Source: Serratia sp. H1w
GTDB taxonomy: Bacteria; Pseudomonadota; Gammaproteobacteria; Enterobacterales; Enterobacteriaceae
Direction: 5' to 3'
Length of the DNA: 64,000 nucleotides
Assembly (NCBI RefSeq): GCF_000633355.1
Contig: NZ_AYMQ01000006.1
Span: 1-64,000 of the forward strand
Under the pieces are notes generated by a model that made no database searches, was not told the origin of the DNA, and was given only the letters and a program-made list of their open reading frames with translations. Positions 14,147-29,982 of the stretch are shown here, piece by piece (positions within the stretch are counted from its first letter, which is position 1; every line of letters starts with the position of its first letter). Made by a program: the position numbers and the translations under genes.

Positions 14147-14713
14147 GTGTCTATCGATGAACTGTTAAAGCTGCATCCGGTGATCGCAGCGGTAAAAGAT
14201 AATGAAAGCCTACAGGTTGCGGTGAAGTCAGATTGCCAGATTATCTCGGTGCTGTATGGCAACATCTGCAATATTGGCCGTATCGTGCAGCAGGTGAAAG
14301 AGGCAGGTAAGTATGCCTTTGTGCATGTTGATTTGCTGGAGGGCAGCTCCAACAAGGAGATCGTGATTAATTTCCTGAAGATTGTCACGGCGGCGGACGG
14401 CATCATCAGTACCAAGGCATCAATGGTGAAGGCGGCGCGTCAGCAAGGCTTCTACACCATTCACCGGTTGTTTATCATGGATTCGATCTCTTTCCATAAT
14501 ATCGACAAGCAGGTCGCGCAATCGACGCCGGACTGCATCGAAATCCTGCCGGGCTGTATGCCTAAGGTGCTCGGTTGGGTGGCAGAAAAGATCGACCTGC
14601 CGATCATTGCCGGTGGTCTGGTGTGTGACGAGGATGATGCGCAAACCGCGCTGAATGCCGGGGCCATCGCCGTCGCCACCACCAATCACGAAGTATGGAA
14701 GTTGAAGTTGTAA
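14147..14713 (+). CDS. ygcP: GlpP-family transcription antiterminator YgcP
   Basis: A 188-residue TIM-barrel protein of the family of Bacillus GlpP, which binds glycerol-3-phosphate and the leader mRNA of its target to prevent termination. Family blocks are FVHVDLLEG (58-66), GIISTK (85-90), HRLFIMDS (106-113), PDCIEILPG (128-136), IIAGGLV (153-159) and AGAIAVATTN (171-180). The GTG start follows AGGGGAA. It corresponds to E. coli YgcP. It lies 37 bp after metH and may be read from that transcript. The only repeated leader terminators nearby are those of the ygc operons at 17552-17620 and 17838-17909, so these are its likely targets; this is inference. The effector is probably a phosphorylated compound, not necessarily glycerol-3-phosphate. 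Confidence 0.88.
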   Translation: MSIDELLKLHPVIAAVKDNESLQVAVKSDCQIISVLYGNICNIGRIVQQVKEAGKYAFVHVDLLEGSSNKEIVINFLKIVTAADGIISTKASMVKAARQQGFYTIHRLFIMDSISFHNIDKQVAQSTPDCIEILPGCMPKVLGWVAEKIDLPIIAGGLVCDEDDAQTALNAGAIAVATTNHEVWKLKL

Positions 14714-14717
14714 TCAA

Positions 14718-14748
14718 GGGGGGCACCGTAAGGTGCCCCTCTCTTTTT
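14718..14748 (+). terminator. Intrinsic terminator after ygcP
   Basis: GGGGCACC, loop GTAA, GGTGCCCC, then TCTCTTTTT. It ends the metH-ygcP side and its tail overlaps the stop codon of the convergent ygcE. Confidence 0.92.
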
Positions 14749-16195
14749 AGTCAACCAATGGGCTGAGCGCCTGTAACAGCGGATCCAGATGTTTGTTCAC
14801 CTGCTGGTACACCTGTTGGTTCAGTTGATTGTAGAACCTGTGATTATCCATGTTCGGTGCAAAACTGTCCCCCATCCGCACCAGCTTCTGTGCGGCCTGC
14901 TCGTAATCGCTAAAGACGTTCACAGCCATCCCGGCATTGATGGCGCAGCCAACGGCCGCCGAGCCCTTCATCACGTTACGGCTGGTGGGGATGCCAAACA
15001 CATCGGCAAAGATCTGCATGAAAAGATCGCTGTTGGCTCCTCCGCCAGAAATAATCAGGTGCTTGAACGGGGTTTTCAGCTCCAGCGCCATCTTGTCCAT
15101 ATGGTTCTTCATGGTGAAGGCAATGCCCTCCAGCACGGAACGGTACATATGGGCGCGGGTGTGGCGGCCATCGAAGCCAATCATGGCTCCTTTACGGAAC
15201 TCCGCTTCTGATGGTGGCGCCCAGTCGTGTACGGTGATGAGCCCTTCACAACCTGCTGGAACGCGTTCTGCCTCCTGATTCAGTAACTCCTCAATGCTGG
15301 TTCCGGCATCATGAGCATCCGACAGCGCGGCCGCGCCAAACTGATCGCGGAACCAACTGATGGTCCACATACCGCGGCGCACGCCCATACATTCATACAG
15401 GTAACGGCCAGGGATCGAGGCTTGGAATGGCCAGAAGTTTTGGGCATCTTTCACGTTGGCATGGCCGTGTACCATGGCACCGATATAGGTTCCGAGGGAA
15501 ATCAGCGCGACGCCTTCATCCAGTGAACCGGCGCCCAGAGCTTCCACCGCTTTGTCATGCGCGGTGGCAACCACCGGAATACCTGCGGGGATGCCAAGCT
15601 GTTGTGCGACTTGCTGAGTGATATGACCGAGGATTTCACCTGGTTTCACTACATCCAGCACCATGTCGCGCGTCAGGTTACAGCTTTGCCAGGCGGCGGG
15701 ATCGGTGCTCCAATCGAGGCTGTCGTTGTCCATTGGCCACCAACCGATGTAGTTGGCGCAGGTGTCTTTGAACTCGCCGGTCAGGCGATGGGTGATGTAA
15801 CCCGACGTGGTCGTCACATAACGTACGCCCTGATAGGCATCGATATATTCATAGGGTTTGTTCAGGCGTTTATCCATCCAGTTGATCACCGGATAGGCCA
15901 GTTCACCATTTTCCTGCAACAGTACCCGGCAGCAGCGCACGATACAGATGCCCATCGCCAGAATGTCCTGCGGCTTACCACCCCGTTCGCCGAAACGCTG
16001 CATGGCGCGGCGGAAGGCGACCTTCAGTGAATCCCACAGGTCATCGTCGGGATGTTCTGCCAACAGCGGGGCCGGAATATCCATCTTGCGTAGCTGCTGT
16101 TTCCCTTCGCAAATTGCGTTGCCGTCCAGATCAAAAATCACCACTTTGGCGCTTTGGGTGCCCACGTCCACACCCATCAGATACTTGCTCTTCAT
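14747..16195 (-). CDS. ygcE: FGGY-family carbohydrate kinase YgcE
   Basis: A 482-residue ATP-dependent sugar or polyol kinase of the FGGY family. The N-terminal phosphate loop MGVDVGTQSAKVV and the C-terminal adenosine loop HLIISGGGANSDLFMQIFAD are intact, and the catalytic aspartate is expected in ATAHDKAVEALG near residue 215. AAGGAG precedes the ATG. It is the E. coli YgcE orthologue by sequence and neighbourhood; its substrate is not established. It is the second gene of the leftward yqcE-ygcE operon, 20 bp after yqcE. Its product is a candidate inducer for the antiterminator YgcP (inference). Confidence 0.87.
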   Translation of the reverse strand: MKSKYLMGVDVGTQSAKVVIFDLDGNAICEGKQQLRKMDIPAPLLAEHPDDDLWDSLKVAFRRAMQRFGERGGKPQDILAMGICIVRCCRVLLQENGELAYPVINWMDKRLNKPYEYIDAYQGVRYVTTTSGYITHRLTGEFKDTCANYIGWWPMDNDSLDWSTDPAAWQSCNLTRDMVLDVVKPGEILGHITQQVAQQLGIPAGIPVVATAHDKAVEALGAGSLDEGVALISLGTYIGAMVHGHANVKDAQNFWPFQASIPGRYLYECMGVRRGMWTISWFRDQFGAAALSDAHDAGTSIEELLNQEAERVPAGCEGLITVHDWAPPSEAEFRKGAMIGFDGRHTRAHMYRSVLEGIAFTMKNHMDKMALELKTPFKHLIISGGGANSDLFMQIFADVFGIPTSRNVMKGSAAVGCAINAGMAVNVFSDYEQAAQKLVRMGDSFAPNMDNHRFYNQLNQQVYQQVNKHLDPLLQALSPLVD

Positions 16196-16215: not shown

Positions 16216-17496
16216 TTATTCGGTGACCGGCTGTGTCGTTGTATTTTTGGTGCCGGCGCGCTTGATGTTGTTAGCCAGCAGGAAGGTGAACACCACCACC
16301 AGGCAGGAGGTACCCAATCCCATCAACCACATATTGTGATAGGCCTCGGCGGCGGGCAGAGTGTCTTGCCAGTGGCCGATAACCGGATAAACAAACACGT
16401 CGGGCAGGAAGCCGATCACCGAACAGATCCCCACGGTGGTACCCATAATGTATTTTGGCGTTCTGGCCTCGCCGATACAGGCGAAGTACAACCCGCGTGA
16501 GGCGTAGCAGGTGAAGGCCAACAACAGGATCAGGCCAATACCCACGGCGACCGAGGTTGGATTCTGGTTGGTGATCAGCAACACCGCCAGGGTGGCCAGG
16601 CTGACTAACGCCAGTAACTGAATGGCCCGCGTTGGCGATTTCAGCCGGGTATAGGTGGTGATGATCCCGCCAATCGGCCCGCACATGGCGCGGAAGATTT
16701 TGTTGATTACGATCCCCATGTAGCTGGCGGCGACCAGGGTCATACCATACATTTCGGTCAGGTAGTTGGTGGAGTAGCTGAGGATGGCGTAGATGGTATA
16801 GACGCCAAAAATGATCATGCTGCAATACCAGGTGGTGCTGATTTTAAGCACCGAGAGAATATCGCCCAGGCTGAATTTATGGGGTTTCTCGGTCTCGTCA
16901 CTGCTGACAAAGCCGTCGGTGACAAAGAACCAGCAGAGAATGCCCAACAGGATATACACGCCGCTGTAGATCAGGATCACCGCCTTCAGGCTGTTGGGAT
17001 TTTCCGGCGCGAACAGTGAGAAAATCCACATGGTGAATACCGCCAGCGCCATCACGCCAACGCCGCGTAGCCCTTCCATCCAACCCATGATTTTGCCCTG
17101 TTCTTCATGGTTGCCGAGCAGCGAAGCGGCTTTGATCGAGACTGACCACAGCAGCAGGATGGTGGTGATTGCGAAGGCGACCTGGATCAGGATCATTACC
17201 CAGAATGGCGGGTAGACCGCCATCAGCAGCCCTAACAGGCCGGTGGCGATCATCGCGAAGGTTATCATCTTGCGATGAGAGAATTTATCGGCAATGATCC
17301 CGCTAGGGGCATACAGAATAATCGCAGTGATACCGAAGGTGCTCATGATGAGGCCAATTTCGGTATTGGAGAATCCCATAAACTTGGCCATCGGGATTTG
17401 ATAAATATAGCGTAGATAGGCGAGATCGAAACTTACTCCGCCGCTGATACTTATTATTGCCAGCGTTAACCAACGGTGGGAATTGTTTTTTTCCAT
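16216..17496 (-). CDS. yqcE: MFS permease YqcE
   Basis: Inner-membrane transporter of the major facilitator superfamily with about 12 hydrophobic segments. The inter-helix loop IADKFSHRK after helix 2 is the typical MFS motif A region. The start MEKNNSHRW is preferred because it gives 426 residues, close to the family length, and follows CGGAAC; in-frame ATGs at 17511 and 17523 are alternatives. First gene of the leftward operon and probably the importer for the YgcE substrate. Its transcript begins with the terminator/antiterminator leader at 17552-17620. Confidence 0.85.
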   Translation of the reverse strand: MEKNNSHRWLTLAIISISGGVSFDLAYLRYIYQIPMAKFMGFSNTEIGLIMSTFGITAIILYAPSGIIADKFSHRKMITFAMIATGLLGLLMAVYPPFWVMILIQVAFAITTILLLWSVSIKAASLLGNHEEQGKIMGWMEGLRGVGVMALAVFTMWIFSLFAPENPNSLKAVILIYSGVYILLGILCWFFVTDGFVSSDETEKPHKFSLGDILSVLKISTTWYCSMIIFGVYTIYAILSYSTNYLTEMYGMTLVAASYMGIVINKIFRAMCGPIGGIITTYTRLKSPTRAIQLLALVSLATLAVLLITNQNPTSVAVGIGLILLLAFTCYASRGLYFACIGEARTPKYIMGTTVGICSVIGFLPDVFVYPVIGHWQDTLPAAEAYHNMWLMGLGTSCLVVVFTFLLANNIKRAGTKNTTTQPVTE

Positions 17497-17551
17497 GGTG
17501 AAGTTCCGCATAAATATACCCATTAATTGTTATTGGGTACATCCGTTAAAC

Positions 17552-17620
17552 AAAAAAAGAGAAAAGCAAGCTTCCCGCAATGCAGGAAGTTACTTTTCTC
17601 TTCGTCTCTTTCAGTAACTG
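17552..17620 (-). promoter_or_regulatory. yqcE-ygcE leader: antiterminator hairpin and overlapping terminator
   Basis: Read on the minus strand, CAGTTACT is followed by GAAAGAGACGAAGAGAAA and AGTAACT, which can form a 7-bp stem (17613-17619 with 17588-17594). The second arm lies within GAGAAAAGTAACTTC (17600-17586), which pairs instead with GAAGCTTGCTTTTCTC (17574-17559) followed by seven T, a strong intrinsic terminator. The two folds exclude each other. The sequence is nearly the same as the divergent ygcW leader. This is the architecture of a protein-controlled antiterminator; control by YgcP is inference. Confidence 0.8.
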
Positions 17621-17837
17621 CGTTAATAAATAACACGCTAGGCTGTATTTCATCTGTGAGAGTTATCACAAAACCGAGGTGGGGCCATTTGGTTAGATCC
17701 TAATCGCGCAGTAATTCACCATATTAAGCCGAAATAAATAAGTGAGGTCGGTGTTTAATCTTAATCCGGATCATCAAGAAATGAATTTGTGATTGGCGTC
17801 ACGGAATAGCCAGGAACGAATGTGTTACTTTTTTTGC

Positions 17838-17909
17838 CAGTTACTAGAGACGATGAGAAAAGTAACTTCTCTGCCAAGCGCAGGGGAGGTTGCTTTTCTC
17901 TTTTTTTTT
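17838..17909 (+). promoter_or_regulatory. ygcWUSRQ leader: antiterminator hairpin and overlapping terminator
   Basis: AGTTACT (17839-17845), loop AGAGACGATGAGAAA and AGTAACT (17861-17867) form a short hairpin. The arm GAGAAAAGTAACTTCTC (17855-17871) alternatively pairs with GAGGTTGCTTTTCTC (17886-17900), followed by nine T, giving a terminator that ends 29 bp before ygcW. From CAGTTACT through the first terminator arm it matches the minus-strand leader at nearly every position apart from a 3-nt indel. The central part of the 442-bp yqcE-ygcW gap (17621-17837) must hold both promoters; I could not assign hexamers confidently. Confidence 0.8.
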
Positions 17910-17938: not shown

Positions 17939-18724
17939 ATGTCAACAAACGCGTTAAATGAGTTCTCATTAGATTTCTTCTCGCTAAAAGGCAAAACCGC
18001 CATTGTCACCGGTGGCAACAGTGGTCTGGGGCAGGCATTTGCCATGGCGTTGGCCAAGGCTGGTGCGAATCTGTTCATTCCAAGCTTTATCATGGATAAG
18101 GGCCAAACCCGCGAAATGATTGAGCAGCAAGGGGTTAAGGTTGAGTTCATGCAGGTGGATATCACGGAAAAAGGCGCGCCTGCCAGAGTGATTGCCCAGT
18201 GCCTGGAGACCTTTGGTTCGGTGGATATTCTGGTGAACAACGCCGGGATCTGTAAGCTGAACAAGGTGCTGGATTTCGGCCGTGAAGACTGGGATCCGAT
18301 GATCGACATCAACCTTACCGCCGCCTTTGAATTGAGCTATGAAGCGGCAAAAATCATGATCCCGAAAAAACAGGGGAAAATAATCAATATCTGTTCCCTG
18401 TTCTCTTATCTGGGCGGCCAGTGGTCACCGGCTTATTCGGCCACTAAACATGCGTTGGCCGGTTTCACCAAAGCCTATTGCGACGAGTTGGGGCAATACA
18501 ATATTCAGGTGAACGGCATTGCTCCGGGCTATTATGCGACAGACATTACGGTAGAAACACGTAAAAACCCTGAAACCAATAAGCGCGTACTTGATCATAT
18601 TCCAGCCAATCGCTGGGGTGAAACCCAAGATTTGATGGGCGCAATGGTATTTTTAGCTAGTCGTGCCTCTGATTATGTTAACGGTCATTTGTTGGTGGTC
18701 GATGGAGGTTATTTGGTTCGCTAA
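17939..18724 (+). CDS. ygcW: Short-chain dehydrogenase YgcW
   Basis: A 261-residue NAD(P)-dependent oxidoreductase of the classical SDR family, similar to 2-deoxy-D-gluconate 3-dehydrogenases. The cofactor loop TGGNSGLG, the NNAG motif in DILVNNAGICKL, and the catalytic YSATK with the upstream serine in NICSLFSYLGG are all present. AAGGGG precedes the ATG, and the length equals E. coli YgcW. First gene of the rightward operon, immediately after the leader terminator. It probably oxidises a hydroxyl of the imported sugar, sugar acid or polyol; the substrate is unknown. Confidence 0.88.
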   Translation: MSTNALNEFSLDFFSLKGKTAIVTGGNSGLGQAFAMALAKAGANLFIPSFIMDKGQTREMIEQQGVKVEFMQVDITEKGAPARVIAQCLETFGSVDILVNNAGICKLNKVLDFGREDWDPMIDINLTAAFELSYEAAKIMIPKKQGKIINICSLFSYLGGQWSPAYSATKHALAGFTKAYCDELGQYNIQVNGIAPGYYATDITVETRKNPETNKRVLDHIPANRWGETQDLMGAMVFLASRASDYVNGHLLVVDGGYLVR

Positions 18725-18794
18725 ATTAATGGGTGGTTCCTTTTAATTTTACTTAAGCTCATTTTATCTATTCTTAAATTAGGAAGGGTTGGTT

Positions 18795-20249
18795 ATGTCT
18801 CTATCTCGTGAAGAAATTGTCGTTCAGTTAAAAGAAATGGTTGGCCCTGAGCGGGTTATTACCGATGAAAAAGTGCTGCAAAAAAATAGCATAGACCGCT
18901 TCCGCAAATATGCCGATATTCACGGCGTGTTTACTCAACCGCTGCCTGCGGCCGTGGTGAAGCTGGCCGATACCCAACAGGTCTCCGACGTGCTGGCGTT
19001 TATGAATAAGCACGGCATTACTGGCGTACCGCGCACCGGGGCTTCGGCTACTGAAGGCGGGTTGGAAACGGTGGTGAAGAATTCCGTGGTGCTGGATGGC
19101 TCAGGGATGAACAAGGTCATCAACATTGATATTCGCAATATGCAGGCCACGGCACAGTGCGGCGTACCGTTAGAGGTACTGGAGAATCAGTTGCGCGCCC
19201 AGGGTTACACTACCGGCCACTCCCCGCAGTCCAAACCACTGGCTCAGATGGGCGGCCTGGTCGCGACGCGCAGTATCGGCCAGTTCTCCACGCTGTACGG
19301 GGCGATCGAAGACATGGTGGTTGGGCTGGAAGCCGTGTTCCCGAATGGCAATATCACCCGCATTAAAAACGTGCCGCGCCGTGCCGCTGGTCCGGATATC
19401 CGCCACGTGATTATCGGTAACGAAGGCGCGCTGTGCTTTATCACCGAAGTGACGGTGAAAATCTTCAAATACATGCCGGAAAACAACCTGTTTTACGGTT
19501 ATATCCTCGATAACATGCCGACCGGTTTCGACATCCTGCGTGAAGTAATGGTCGAAGGCTATCGTCCTTCCATTGCCCGTTTGTATGATGCAGAAGACGG
19601 CACCCAACACTTTACCCACTTCGCCGAAGGCAAATGCGTGCTGATCTTTATGGCCGAAGGGGCCAAAGGGATTGCGCAGGCGACCGGCACGGGGATTGAT
19701 GAAATCGTCAAACGCTATCCGGAATGTAAAAAGGTCGACAGCAAGCTGATTGAAGCCTGGTTCAACAATCTGAACTGGGGCCCGGAAAAAGTGGCGGCAG
19801 AACGCGTGCAGATCATGAAGACCAACAACATGGGCTTCACCACCGAAGTTTCTGGCGATTGGGGCTGCATCAATGCGATTTACGAGAATGTGATCCGCCG
19901 CATCCGCGATGAGTTCCCACATGCTGGTGATATCACTATGCTGGGCGGCCACTCGTCACACAGCTATATCAATGGCACCAATATGTACTTCGTGTACGAC
20001 TACAACGTGGTGGACTGCAAGCCGGAAGAAGAGATCGACAAGTATCACAACCCACTGAATAAAATCATTGTGGAAGAGACCATCAAGCAGGGCGGTTCGA
20101 TGGTGCATCACCATGGCATTGGTAAGCACCGCGTGCACTGGACCAAGGATGAACACGGCAGCGCCTACTACATCCTCAAGGCGCTGAAAGAGGTGTACGA
20201 CCCGAATGGCATCATGAATACCGGCACCATTTATCCGATTGAAAAATAA
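18795..20249 (+). CDS. ygcU: FAD-linked oxidase/dehydrogenase YgcU
   Basis: A 484-residue flavoenzyme of the VAO/PCMH superfamily, of the glycolate oxidase subunit D and alkyldihydroxyacetonephosphate synthase type. The FAD-binding half contains GVPRTGASATEGGLETVV and GHSPQSKPLAQMGGLVATRS; the C-terminal half ends in the conserved VHHHGIGKHR and YDPNGIMNTG blocks. The ATG at 18795 follows GGAAGGG and gives the length of E. coli YgcU. It likely oxidises a 2-hydroxy acid or phosphorylated polyol and passes electrons to the ETF encoded by ygcRQ (inference from the operon). Confidence 0.87.
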   Translation: MSLSREEIVVQLKEMVGPERVITDEKVLQKNSIDRFRKYADIHGVFTQPLPAAVVKLADTQQVSDVLAFMNKHGITGVPRTGASATEGGLETVVKNSVVLDGSGMNKVINIDIRNMQATAQCGVPLEVLENQLRAQGYTTGHSPQSKPLAQMGGLVATRSIGQFSTLYGAIEDMVVGLEAVFPNGNITRIKNVPRRAAGPDIRHVIIGNEGALCFITEVTVKIFKYMPENNLFYGYILDNMPTGFDILREVMVEGYRPSIARLYDAEDGTQHFTHFAEGKCVLIFMAEGAKGIAQATGTGIDEIVKRYPECKKVDSKLIEAWFNNLNWGPEKVAAERVQIMKTNNMGFTTEVSGDWGCINAIYENVIRRIRDEFPHAGDITMLGGHSSHSYINGTNMYFVYDYNVVDCKPEEEIDKYHNPLNKIIVEETIKQGGSMVHHHGIGKHRVHWTKDEHGSAYYILKALKEVYDPNGIMNTGTIYPIEK

Positions 20250-20481: not shown

Positions 20482-21816
20482 ATGACATCACGGCTGCCTC
20501 GGCAAGTGCGCATGGATGATATTCCGCTTAACGCTTTTCATTTTAAAATGGCGGGGCTGACCTTTGGCGCACACCTTACCGACGGCTATGTGCTGGGGGT
20601 GATTGGTTTTGCGCTGGCCCAGCTCAAGCCGCAAATGGGGCTGACGCCATTTTGGGAAGGGATGATCGGCAGTTCAGCGCTGATTGGCCTGTTCCTGGGT
20701 AGCCTGGTATTGGGCTGGGTCTCCGACCATATTGGCCGCCAGAAAATTTTCAGCTTCAGTTTTGTCATCATCACGTTGGCTTCCGTGATGCAGTTTTTCG
20801 CCACTACGCCGGAACAGCTGTTCTGGCTACGGGTGTTGGTAGGGATCGGGCTAGGGGGCGATTATGCCGTCGGCCATACCATGCTGGCCGAGTTTGCTCC
20901 GCGTAAGCATCGCGGCATCCTGCTGGGATCCTTTAGCGTGATCTGGACATTGGGTTACGTCGCCGCCGGGTTTGCCGGCCATTTTCTGGCCGATCTGGGG
21001 CCAGAGTCCTGGCGTTGGCTGCTGGCCTCAAGCGCCGTGCCTGCGCTGTTGATTATGTTATTACGCATCGGCACGCCGGAGTCGCCACGTTGGCTGATGC
21101 GCAAAGGGCGGATCGCCGAGGCACATCTAGTGGTGCTGCGCTGTTTTGGCCCGCAGGTGATCCTCAATGACGAAATCCCGGTAGAAACCGCACGTCATAT
21201 GCACACCTTGTTTTCGCCGCGTTACTGGCGGCGCACCGCGTTCAACAGCCTGTTCTTTGTCTGCCTGGTGATCCCTTATTTCGCCATCTATACCTTCCTG
21301 CCCTCGATCCTGACCACATTAGGACAAAGCCAAAGCTTTGCTACCGATCTGCTGCTCAATGGCTTGCTGATGGTGGGGGCGGTGATGGGTATTGCCTTGA
21401 CCCAATGGCTGCCGCGCCGTCGCTTCCTGATTGGCGCGTTCTGGGTACTGGCAGCCAGCCTGGGGGCATTGGCCTTTGTGCCGCCTGGGCAGGGGACAAT
21501 GCTGGTGCTGTTTGCCGTCTTTACGCTGACGATTTCGGCGGTCAGTAATCTGGTCGGAGTGTTCCCGGCGGAAAGTTTCCCGACCGATATTCGTTCATTG
21601 GGCGTCGGTTTTGCCACTTCGATGAGTCGGCTCGGATCGGCTATTGGTACCGCCTTGCTACCGCTGTCGATGCTTTCGTTGGGTCTGCAAGGCACCATGC
21701 TGATCCTGACCGGTGTGTTGGTGCTTGGGGCGGTAGTTTCAATTTTGTGGGCTCCGGAAACCAAGGATATGACGCTGGTGGGCGCCTCCTCGGTAAAGCC
21801 GTTAATCGCCCACTGA
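20482..21816 (+). CDS. ygcS: MFS permease YgcS
   Basis: A 444-residue inner-membrane transporter of the sugar/metabolite-proton symporter group. It has two copies of the MFS loop motif (GWVSDHIGRQK after helix 2, and the related R-rich loop near TESPRW as GTPESPRWLMRKGR), plus AHLTDGYVLG in helix 1 and PAESFPTDIRSLGVG in the C-terminal half. It matches E. coli YgcS closely. GGGGGG precedes the ATG. It is the second permease of the cluster, read with the dehydrogenases, whereas YqcE is read with the kinase; they may carry different substrates or directions. Confidence 0.88.
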   Translation: MTSRLPRQVRMDDIPLNAFHFKMAGLTFGAHLTDGYVLGVIGFALAQLKPQMGLTPFWEGMIGSSALIGLFLGSLVLGWVSDHIGRQKIFSFSFVIITLASVMQFFATTPEQLFWLRVLVGIGLGGDYAVGHTMLAEFAPRKHRGILLGSFSVIWTLGYVAAGFAGHFLADLGPESWRWLLASSAVPALLIMLLRIGTPESPRWLMRKGRIAEAHLVVLRCFGPQVILNDEIPVETARHMHTLFSPRYWRRTAFNSLFFVCLVIPYFAIYTFLPSILTTLGQSQSFATDLLLNGLLMVGAVMGIALTQWLPRRRFLIGAFWVLAASLGALAFVPPGQGTMLVLFAVFTLTISAVSNLVGVFPAESFPTDIRSLGVGFATSMSRLGSAIGTALLPLSMLSLGLQGTMLILTGVLVLGAVVSILWAPETKDMTLVGASSVKPLIAH

Positions 21817-21828
21817 CAGGAGAAACGG

Positions 21829-22632
21829 ATGAACCTGCTGTTGGCGATTAAGGTCGCACCGGATTTGGGCATGTTGGCACAGAGCGATTGGCAGCCTGAT
21901 GAACGGTTGCAGATCGACACTCGCTTTGCCCGGCGTCTGTTAAGCGGCTATGACGAAAGCGCGGCGGAAATGGTGCTGATGCTGCGTGACCAGATGGAAC
22001 TTAGCCTAAGCGTCTTGACGGTGGCCGACGCGATGGCCGAACCGGCGCTGAAGCAATTGATGGCGTTGGAATATCAGCAGGCGGTACGCATTGAGCCTCC
22101 TGCGGATTGGGATCTACGTTTTAACCCTGCAACGATTGCCGCGTTGGTCGCGGCTTATCAGCAACAGATTGCCCCGCAGCAGGTGATCGTCATGGGAGCG
22201 CAAAGCCTTGAGGGGCAAAACAGCCAGACTCCTTTGATGTTGGCTGAACGCCTTGGCTGGCCCTGTATCACCGGTGTTTGCCAATTAGCGGCGGCCGAAC
22301 AGGTGGGGGGGCTACGGGTTACCCGGCAAACCGCTTTTGGTCAGGAGGTGATGACGGTGATGCCTCCTTTGGTATTAGTGGTAGGGAACTCGCAACAGGC
22401 GAGTGCGTTACGCGTTCCCACGTTGCAGCAGAAGCTGGCTGCGGGTAAGCGGCAGATCCAACATTTGTCACCTACCGATCTGGCGATGACGGAACAGCCT
22501 GCCGGTGATGTGCATCTGAGGGGCTTTACGCATGTGGAACATCGGCGCGCCGGGGTCGTGATTGAGGGGGGCAGCATAGAGCAGAAAGTGCAGCAGCTGT
22601 GCCAGGATTATCTTCGTGAACGGTGGTCATGA
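21829..22632 (+). CDS. ygcR: Electron transfer flavoprotein beta subunit YgcR
   Basis: A 267-residue protein of the ETF beta family (FixA/EtfB type). Its N-terminus MNLLLAIKVAPD and the central segment VIVMGAQSLEGQNSQTP match the nucleotide-binding domain that holds AMP in canonical ETFs. AGGAG precedes the ATG, 12 bp after ygcS. It forms a heterodimer with YgcQ, encoded next with an overlap. It accepts electrons from a dehydrogenase of the operon, most likely YgcU (inference). Confidence 0.85.
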   Translation: MNLLLAIKVAPDLGMLAQSDWQPDERLQIDTRFARRLLSGYDESAAEMVLMLRDQMELSLSVLTVADAMAEPALKQLMALEYQQAVRIEPPADWDLRFNPATIAALVAAYQQQIAPQQVIVMGAQSLEGQNSQTPLMLAERLGWPCITGVCQLAAAEQVGGLRVTRQTAFGQEVMTVMPPLVLVVGNSQQASALRVPTLQQKLAAGKRQIQHLSPTDLAMTEQPAGDVHLRGFTHVEHRRAGVVIEGGSIEQKVQQLCQDYLRERWS

Positions 22633-23567
22633 TGAATATTGCGCTGATATTGGATGCGGATGCCTCCAGCTTTTATGCCCAGGCCAACCAGATCAATCAG
22701 TTCCTGCAACTGAGTCAACTTACCGCAGAGAGCCTGGAGCTGTGGCTGTTCAGCGATGAAAAGCCGCAGAGCCTGCCACGTCTGGACGGTGAGGTGACAC
22801 AGATACGTTGGGTCACCACTCCCCGGCTGGCAGAGGCGCGAATAGCGGTATTGGAGCAGATGCGGCAAGCCTTCGAACCGCGATTGATGCTGTTTGCAGG
22901 CGATGAAGGGGGGGAATTGGCAACGCGTCTGGCCTGCCGGAGTGGCGGCTCTGCCTGTTGTGCGGTGGAACGGTTACACATTAACGGCAACGAATGCCGG
23001 GTAACCAAAGCCGTGTATGGTAACCACCTCACGGCTGAACTGGCGATGACGCGGGAACCTTGGTGCCTGAGCGTAGCCCGCAGCGGTGCGGCAAGTGTGG
23101 AAATAGGGCCCAGCCCGGTTGTAGCACAACGCTTTAAGCCAACGAAGATAGCCGATGCCGAGTGGCTATTGGCTTCGGTGAGTTCACCGCAACCAGAAGC
23201 GTCAACACTGAGTCGGGCTCGCTATGTGCTAGCCATCGGGGAAGGGGCCGGCAGTGCCCAGCAGGTAGCTCAGGTGCAGCAGTTGGCCAGCAACATGGGC
23301 GCTGAACTGGCTGCCAGCAGGCCGGTAGTCATGAATGCTTGGTGCGAGATGGACCGCTTATTGGGCATGTCTGGAGCCATCATTGCCCCCGAGGTTTGCA
23401 TTGCAGCAGGAGTCTCCGGTTCCCCGGCGTTCGCTATCGGTATTCGTCATAGCAAGTTTATTGTGGCGATCAACCAGGATCCGCAGGCGGCTATTTTTGC
23501 CCAGGCCGACGTGGGGATTGTGGGTGATATGCACGAGGTGTTAACCGCATTATCTGATGCCCTTTAA
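22632..23567 (+). CDS. ygcQ: Electron transfer flavoprotein alpha subunit YgcQ
   Basis: A 311-residue ETF alpha subunit. The C-terminal FAD domain has the family blocks YVLAIGEG, LAASRPVVMNAWC, CIAAGVSGSPAFAIGIRHSK and VAINQDPQAAIFAQADVGIVGD. The A of its ATG is the last base of the ygcR stop; another ATG three bases earlier would give a 4-bp overlap. Either way translation is coupled, as expected for subunits of one complex. Its 3' end overlaps the convergent ygcO by 4 bp. Confidence 0.86.
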   Translation: MNIALILDADASSFYAQANQINQFLQLSQLTAESLELWLFSDEKPQSLPRLDGEVTQIRWVTTPRLAEARIAVLEQMRQAFEPRLMLFAGDEGGELATRLACRSGGSACCAVERLHINGNECRVTKAVYGNHLTAELAMTREPWCLSVARSGAASVEIGPSPVVAQRFKPTKIADAEWLLASVSSPQPEASTLSRARYVLAIGEGAGSAQQVAQVQQLASNMGAELAASRPVVMNAWCEMDRLLGMSGAIIAPEVCIAAGVSGSPAFAIGIRHSKFIVAINQDPQAAIFAQADVGIVGDMHEVLTALSDAL

Positions 23568-29662: not shown

Positions 29663-29776
29663 GTAAAACCTCGTGTCAGGGACGCCATTCAAATTGGCAT
29701 TTAATTTCCATAAGCCTTGGCACAAGGGAAGAGCGGTAAACAGGGAGCAGGCGTAGAGGTTGAGGCTACGATACAC

Positions 29777-29982
29777 CCAGAAGCGCCCCACCTTGCTGAC
29801 TGCCTGTTCGGGCAGCCCATGGTGACAACTCAGGGGATTCAGCCCCTGTAGCCGACGTGATGATTGCCGCAAGCATCTCGCCTCGGCGTCGCTCCCCCTC
29901 CTGTGCCGTCATCGGATACGGGCTCCTCTGACACTCTACCTGGGCGACGCGCCTCTTCTGGCTTGCACAACGGATGTGCAAG
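29777..29982 (-). promoter_or_regulatory. Lysine riboswitch (L box) of lysC
   Basis: Read on the minus strand, the closing stem CCAGAAG / CTTCTGG encloses 185 nt (29961-29777). It begins with AGAGGCGCG and contains AGAGGAGCC, GGGGCTGAATCCCC and other blocks that match the E. coli lysC leader almost base for base. A stable extra hairpin, CTTGCACA / TGTGCAAG (29982-29962), precedes it. Lysine binding is known to reduce lysC expression by blocking translation and exposing RNase sites. The rest of the leader runs to the start codon at 29662. Confidence 0.93.

Follow-up and report, generated by a model that had tools for sequence, protein, structure and literature searches.

Predicted YgcP-dependent antitermination at twin leader RNAs of the divergent ygc operons in Serratia and related bacteria

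Results

The ygc locus and its leaders

The window analyzed here, a stretch of 64,000 nucleotides from Serratia sp. H1w, contains a cluster of ygc genes. The proposed trans-acting regulator is encoded by ygcP (14147..14713, + strand), the single match to PF04309 (G3P_antiterm) in this genome (216 bits against a cut-off of 27); NCBIfam gave no match for YgcP, and its solved relatives are 3kts and 1vkf. On the − strand lie ygcE (14747..16195), encoding an FGGY-type sugar kinase homologue whose NCBIfam kinase matches are all below cut-off, and yqcE (16216..17523), named from its E. coli homologue and encoding a transporter-like protein, also with a sub-cut-off NCBIfam match to a transporter. The + strand carries ygcW (17939..18724), a short-chain dehydrogenase homologue (best NCBIfam match 352 bits, cut-off 369), ygcU (18789..20249), a homologue of FAD-containing dehydrogenases with a sub-cut-off GlcD match, and ygcS, ygcR and ygcQ (20482..23567), a transporter homologue and two flavoprotein homologues, again with matches below cut-off. 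Elsewhere in the window, a lysine riboswitch (RF00168, 93 bits) is found at 29773-29965 on the − strand.

The intergenic region between the divergent yqcE and ygcW contains two leaders of near-identical design, and inspection of the sequences confirmed the description in an earlier note on this DNA that both transcripts would begin with almost the same RNA. In the + leader, of which ygcW is the first gene, the putative antiterminator hairpin (17840..17866) is formed by the 5' arm GTTACT (17840-17845), the loop AGAGACGATGAGAAA (17846-17860) and the arm AGTAAC (17861-17866), which is shared with an intrinsic terminator (17855..17909) composed of a stem-loop (17855-17900) and a run of nine T (17901-17909). 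The final six loop bases, GAGAAA, and the AGTAAC arm thus double as the 5' side of the terminator. The − leader, followed by yqcE and then ygcE, has the corresponding hairpin at 17589..17618 (5' arm 17618-17613, loop 17612-17595, shared arm 17594-17589) and the terminator at 17552..17600 (stem-loop 17559-17600, seven T at 17558-17552). The loop is 15 nt long in the + leader and 18 nt in the − leader. Both yqcE and ygcW accordingly have an intrinsic terminator between the gene and its presumed promoter, together with an alternative hairpin that excludes the terminator, as in a GlpP-type antitermination system. A 16-nt loop core occurs twice in the genome of the window with at most one mismatch, in both cases exactly and in these two leaders, compared with no occurrence of the reversed pattern at the same tolerance; a search with the covariance model R1 at E 0.001 found no third leader copy in this genome.

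The terminator folds of the + and − leaders, at -28.3 kcal/mol (z -3.4) and -29.7 kcal/mol (z -5.1), respectively, were more stable than those of all 200 shuffled sequences. The short hairpin alone, in contrast, reached 0 kcal/mol in the + leader, where the tested fragment was one base shorter than the arm, and -6.0 kcal/mol in the − leader (z -1.15, with 27 of 200 shuffles equally good). Because the short hairpin in a single sequence does not exceed chance, its support comes from relatives; because it is weak by itself, some factor would need to hold it closed. The same combination of strong terminators and a weak upstream hairpin would be seen if these elements were plain insulating terminators between divergent genes, with the hairpin arising merely from the resemblance of the two copies. 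Under that explanation, the 5' arm and the loop are superfluous.

Compensatory changes in both stems

A search for YgcP in species genomes yielded 62 loci, namely 55 enterobacterial, 5 from Listeria, 1 from Bacillus and 1 from Lachnoclostridium. One of the records counted among the 55, L075, has Chryseobacterium in its title; since its ygc cluster is complete, enterobacterial and in the same gene order, with ygcW at 88% identity, the record was probably mislabelled or contains mixed sequence. A tolerant scan of the window and the 62 loci gave 79 matches, from which two antisense readings of terminators were removed, leaving 77 copies. All six stem pairs are complete in 73 of these and the other 4 have a single C/A mismatch, even though the stem itself takes different forms: GTTACT/AGTAAC in 28 copies, GTTACC/GGTGAC in 16, ATTACT/AGTAAT in 15, GTTACC/GGTAAC in 10, GTTACC/AGTAAC in 4, GTTACT/AGTAGC in 3 and GTTGCC/GGCGAC in 1.

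Covariation was measured in 32 shorter-loop copies hand-picked from the 77, a restriction adopted because a MAFFT alignment of 39 elements misplaced the 5' arm where the loop was 3 nt longer; parsed separately, 14 longer-loop copies all form the six pairs. In the 32 aligned copies, 98.4% of the cells of the antiterminator helix are paired, as opposed to at most 60.4% when the partners are shifted by 1-3 columns. There are 17 doubly changed cells in this helix compared to 4.9 in shuffles, and none of the 500 shuffles reached as many; double changes fall in three of the six pairs, a number equalled in 14 of 500 shuffles. The terminator helix of the same copies is paired in 95.9% of cells, with 18 doubly changed cells, equalled in none of the 500 shuffles, and five doubly changed pairs, equalled in 38. 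Column 30, which is either A or G, varies together with column 14 (UA 20, CG 9, other 3) and also with column 63 (AU 23, GC 9), as expected for a strand common to two exclusive helices. The claim that the second arm of the hairpin is also the 5' strand of the terminator, such that only one fold can exist at a time, is therefore borne out by compensatory changes in relatives, and the covariation that the earlier note had suggested looking for is present in both stems. That the 5' arm is kept paired by such changes argues against plain insulating terminators, as does the G at column 24, which is fixed while its terminator partner, column 69, varies (GC 23, GU 9).

The claim of a conserved loop stood with a refinement. 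Conserved elements are indeed present, although not as a fixed AGAGACGA; across the relatives, the constant portions are GAG(A/C) and GAGAAA, joined by a variable linker. GAGAAA is invariant in the 32-copy alignment, a value biased upward by the use of a GAGAAA core in the scan that found the copies.

Co-occurrence with ygcP and position at operon heads

Absence of the short hairpin from genomes carrying ygcP would have refuted the proposal, but this was not the outcome. Both hairpins were found, by regular expression, in 52 of the 55 enterobacterial ygcP loci, and the next gene downstream of all 105 enterobacterial leaders is either yqcE (52) or ygcW (53), at a distance of 74-204 nt. One locus (L053) has one fitting leader and a diverged copy that scores 57 bits with the covariance model, in another (L088) the sequence stops short of the leader region, and in a third (L034) the leaders are absent from the contig. 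In E. coli MG1655, the first stem base of the leaders lies at 2900506 (+, before yqcE) and 2900361 (−, before ygcW). Of 5426 complete E. coli genomes, 5018 match the spacer of a locus from a record titled E. coli E69 (L051), and there is no annotated feature in this spacer among the eight matches listed.

We further searched R1 and PF04309 in 295 genomes of the order and in a family sample of also 295 genomes, the two samples overlapping. In the order sample, R1 scored at least 65 bits in exactly the 4 genomes with PF04309 above the cut-off, and weak matches were detected in two genomes without such a protein (G133:C7:26671-26731, 38 bits; G186:C96:2424-2475, 36 bits). In the family sample, YgcP is present at 63-100% identity and near full length in 36 genomes, all 36 of which have R1 matches, in two cases merely a leftover terminator. 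As counted by model score, 33 of the 36 have at least two matches with the best at 64 bits or more; one other (G462) has two matches at 47-49 bits that are intact on reading. The two exceptions (G439, L131:10485-10560; G522, L135:10002-10077) possess ygcP, but their ygcW-yqcE spacer has retained a single two-way terminator and neither antiterminator half, which gives the impression that the sequence separating the two leaders was deleted. A terminator retained alone in the presence of ygcP is what insulation would lead one to expect; set against the compensated 5' arm and the fixed G described above, it leaves that explanation with a very low probability.

Conversely, the four family genomes with just a paralogue of 28-30% identity gave no R1 match, and among the 259 genomes without an orthologous ygcP, there was one match, of 44 bits (G544). 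This decayed copy (L132:4770-4837), whose arm is damaged and whose T-run is incomplete, precedes ygcW (85% identity), the sole ygc gene within the 9 kb examined, and is a possible relic of the leader after loss of the regulator. In another genome (G472, L136), ygcP is reduced to broken fragments with internal stops, no R1 match was detected, and a ygcS-like gene is the only ygc gene identified within the 15 kb examined.

The leaders also remain at the heads of operons when genes are rearranged, as in Listeria, in Bacillus sp. DNRA2 and in G462, where they precede ygcW-ygcU and ygcE. In Serratia microhaemolytica, ygcP is on one contig and the leaders are on another. In the G433 assembly, ygcP lies about 7 kb from the end of its contig, and a different contig carries both leaders, some 20 kb inward of its nearer end, along with yqcE-ygcE and ygcW-U-S-R-Q; the separate contigs and the distances to their ends imply that regulator and targets are well apart.

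Co-occurrence does not single out the YgcP protein, because the ygc structural genes accompany the element just as ygcP does. The pattern would equally be observed for a small riboswitch in which the hairpin binds the substrate of the pathway or its phosphate and blocks the terminator in the absence of any protein; the conserved loop, the exclusive folds and the position at operon heads would appear identical. However, no Rfam family matched over the leaders at the gathering score, only weak unrelated ones at E values up to 5, and known riboswitch families were rejected on this basis; in 5 and 8 related loci, there was likewise no match over a leader at the gathering score, the two matches elsewhere both being in L051. 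A loop of 15 nt on a stem of 6 bp also appears small for an aptamer. A published riboswitch candidate with ygcW given as its downstream operon (PMC4448311) lies 3.5-4.2 kb away and is thus a different element.

CRP-like sites and the start of the leader

Each leader is preceded by a CRP-like site centered 44 nt upstream of its hairpin, TGTGATTGGCGTCACG at 17788..17803 on the + strand (9 of 10 consensus letters) and a site at 17655..17670 on the − strand (10 of 10). When the best site within 110 nt was taken for each of 113 leaders (from the window, 54 loci, L130, L133 and MG1655), all 113 had a site with at least 8 of 10 consensus letters, compared to 5.0% in shuffles. The distance from the center of the site to the hairpin is 42-45 nt in 71 leaders, 80-89 nt in 7 and 99-101 nt in 35, a last group that includes some sites serving the opposite leader. 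The geometry of class II CRP promoters would fit a site at 44 nt with transcription starting just before the hairpin. CRP control of E. coli ygcW and yqcE has been predicted (PMC1794230), and the CRP sites at this position were included in a genomic SELEX study of E. coli CRP (PMC3105977).

If transcripts begin where these sites suggest, the few bases before the hairpin would leave scant room for a ribosome-binding site, which speaks against attenuation controlled by a ribosome on a leader peptide. An ATG directly before GAGAAA in 59 of 109 leaders could be taken as the start of such a peptide but is missing from the other 50, including the − leader of the window. Given that no reading frame is conserved, we rejected this explanation, to which we assign almost no probability.

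Related leaders in Firmicutes

The Listeria, Bacillus and Lachnoclostridium loci gave weak R1 matches, which on inspection have the same hairpin design. The Listeria leader, GTTGCT-AGAGAATTGAGATA-AGCGAC, heads ygcU-ygcP-yqcE-ygcW-ygcE; Bacillus sp. DNRA2 has two leaders, one heading ygcU-ygcR-ygcQ and the other ygcW-transporter-ygcE; and in Lachnoclostridium, TTGC-ATGAGAATTGGAGTCAA-GCAA precedes a glpA-like gene. A narrower search of 120 Bacillales genomes with a pattern of the Firmicute form gave 12 matches, spread over 11 genomes, as opposed to 2 with the reversed pattern and was discarded, because the pattern is too narrow for glp leaders; by eye, only the ygcU leader of Bacillus DNRA2 is real among these, the other 11 having no such terminator behind them and lying mostly inside reading frames.

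Of the genomes sampled, 56 of 61 Bacillales and 8 of 56 Lachnospirales encode a PF04309 protein above the cut-off. In 38 loci around PF04309 genes, a chosen part of the matches, a structural descriptor comprising a GAG..GAG loop, a stem and an overlapping terminator gave 34 matches as opposed to 8.7 per shuffled pass. Replacement of the triplet lowered the count for GTG (11), GCG (5) and GAC (9), but AAG (45) and GGA (40) exceeded the 34 of GAG, so that the descriptor count by itself is not specific; the excess of these two controls likely reflects overlap with the same purine-rich elements. The reading frames downstream, 30 of 34 of which were run against Pfam, comprised 7 MIP (glpF type), 5 DAO+DAO_C (glpD type), 3 DAO+BFD (glpA type), 1 other DAO, 4 FGGY kinases, 2 glycerophosphodiesterases, 2 solute-binding proteins, 1 short-chain dehydrogenase (ygcW) and 5 others.

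A stricter test of upstream regions required GAGA followed after 2-5 bases by GAGA or GAGT, with a closing stem of 4 or more pairs and a T-run behind. Near PF04309 genes, 25 of the 45 regions upstream of glpF, glpD and glpA were positive and 20 lacked the motif, compared with 29 positives among 442 regions upstream of any frame of at least 150 aa, glp genes included. By gene, the test was positive for glpF in 9 of 16 cases, glpD in 13 of 22, glpA in 3 of 7, glpK in 1 of 26 and glpQ in 1 of 5. A looser version, with 39 positives among 76 regions, was set aside because it counted spurious hairpins without terminators. A typical glpD form is TGGTC-GGAGATACGGAGA-GACCA, from G581, a genome that encodes both YgcP with a ygc-type hairpin and a second PF04309 protein with the glpD hairpin. 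The glp loops hold GGA, the motif that brought CsrA into consideration; the two loops of the window are free of GGA, and CsrA was dropped. In one further locus (L225), a set of three similar leaders, each forming a hairpin with a loop like TAGAGAAGCGGAGAAC, lies near one PF04309 paralogue, at 274 and 4266 (+) and 7242 (−), before genes for a solute-binding protein and a HAD hydrolase and a gene with no Pfam match; they are perhaps a separate regulon.

In a tree of 61 regulator sequences, those associated with ygc-type leaders form one side of a branch, 22 rows with support 100/98, in agreement with, rather than as an independent test of, leader labels that were assigned by hand from the loci. 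This clade spans Enterobacterales, Listeria and Bacillus and is adjoined by two Lachnospirales regulators, and the 17 rows labelled as glp type are scattered (13 changes). Another 22 of the 61 rows carried no leader label at the tree stage, and a leader was later found in 11 of these 22 loci.

Discussion

The leaders of the ygc operons can be compared with those of a known antitermination system. In Bacillus subtilis, GlpP, after binding glycerol 3-phosphate, is described as acting on the terminators of the glpD, glpF and glpT promoters (PMC9604022), and it has been reported to bind the antiterminator (PMC7430163). As in the GlpP system of glpD, glpFK and glpTQ, the ygc locus combines a PF04309 regulator with a terminator in the 5' UTR (for GlpP, PMC9604022). 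In Bacillales, moreover, a hairpin with a pair of GAGA motifs and a T-run behind it frequently precedes glpF and glpD, a likeness in the loop that is drawn from Bacillales loci with PF04309 genes. The two types differ in detail: ygc hairpins pair GTTACT with AGTAAC, or use a compensated version of this stem, and their loops end in GAGAAA, whereas the glpD type mostly has GGTY/GACC with GGAGA-N3-GGAGA. Unlike the GlpP system, the ygc leaders also serve other genes, and so probably another ligand, and occur in Gram-negative hosts together with CRP-like sites.

The hairpin might instead be read by an antiterminator of another kind, such as a BglG/LicT-type or ANTAR protein. ANTAR antiterminators (AmiR, NasR) likewise act by antitermination at leader RNA, with paired small-loop hairpins and a protein unrelated to YgcP. 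The BglG/LicT system combines a PRD antiterminator gene with a RAT hairpin that has two internal loops, and the BglG, SacY and LicT proteins are also unrelated to YgcP. At RAT hairpins, as proposed here, a hairpin stabilized by protein competes with a terminator, but LicT contacts two bulges in its hairpin (PMC7430163), as opposed to the one large purine-rich loop of the ygc leaders. Action at leader hairpins, known also for these families (for LicT, PMC7430163), speaks for them; however, the distribution of the element follows that of ygcP in different phyla, and its loop is similar to loops found near GlpP homologues, such that we give this alternative hardly any credence.

The presence of a related loop in leaders of Firmicute glycerol genes that neighbor a GlpP homologue strengthens the link to YgcP, which the earlier note had drawn by inference. 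It is also not predicted for a metabolite aptamer, and we accordingly consider a protein-independent riboswitch improbable. Because a homologous regulator is what the ygc and glp leaders have in common, YgcP-dependent antitermination at both leaders, with termination as the default, appears to be the best explanation of these observations, and we hold it with considerable confidence on the basis of comparative sequence analysis.

Taken together, these observations translate into a model in which default termination and a hairpin held by YgcP provide the simplest account. Under this model, each of the divergent promoters, probably activated by CRP, would yield a leader RNA whose 5' end lies a few bases upstream of the GTTACT arm. 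In the default state, pairing of the GAGAAAAGTAAC segment with downstream sequence would form the intrinsic terminator, and transcription would stop. YgcP, presumably activated by a phosphorylated metabolite, for example the product of the YgcE kinase, would bind the short hairpin through its loop with two GAGA motifs and keep the GAGAAAAGTAAC segment paired upstream, so that the terminator could not form. The resulting read-through would open both predicted operons, yqcE-ygcE and ygcW-U-S-R-Q. Since YgcE is similar to FGGY kinases and belongs to the regulon, its product is a natural candidate for the inducer, and since the genes differ from those of the glp system, a ligand other than glycerol 3-phosphate is likely.

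A broader proposal, which we favor only slightly over its negation, is that all GlpP/YgcP (PF04309) proteins, in whatever phylum, recognize the same RNA code, namely a hairpin that overlaps a terminator and has two GAGA motifs spaced by a few bases in its loop; the stem and the flanking letters would determine which paralogue binds. Genomes with both GlpP and YgcP, like G581, would then keep two insulated circuits, and the enterobacterial YgcP, including that of E. coli K-12, would couple this code to CRP and sense a phosphorylated compound of an undescribed catabolic pathway. A Thermotoga study notes that the GlpP regulon there had not been studied by comparative genomics (PMC3750489), and we found no published RNA target of YgcP in the literature searched.

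The leaders described here thus suggest a concrete RNA target and a regulon for YgcP, an uncharacterized regulator of E. coli K-12. They would tie a set of y-named genes into one circuit that combines CRP with predicted antitermination, and they offer a leader signature for the PF04309 antiterminators. With a reporter, the substrate of the ygc pathway would become searchable.
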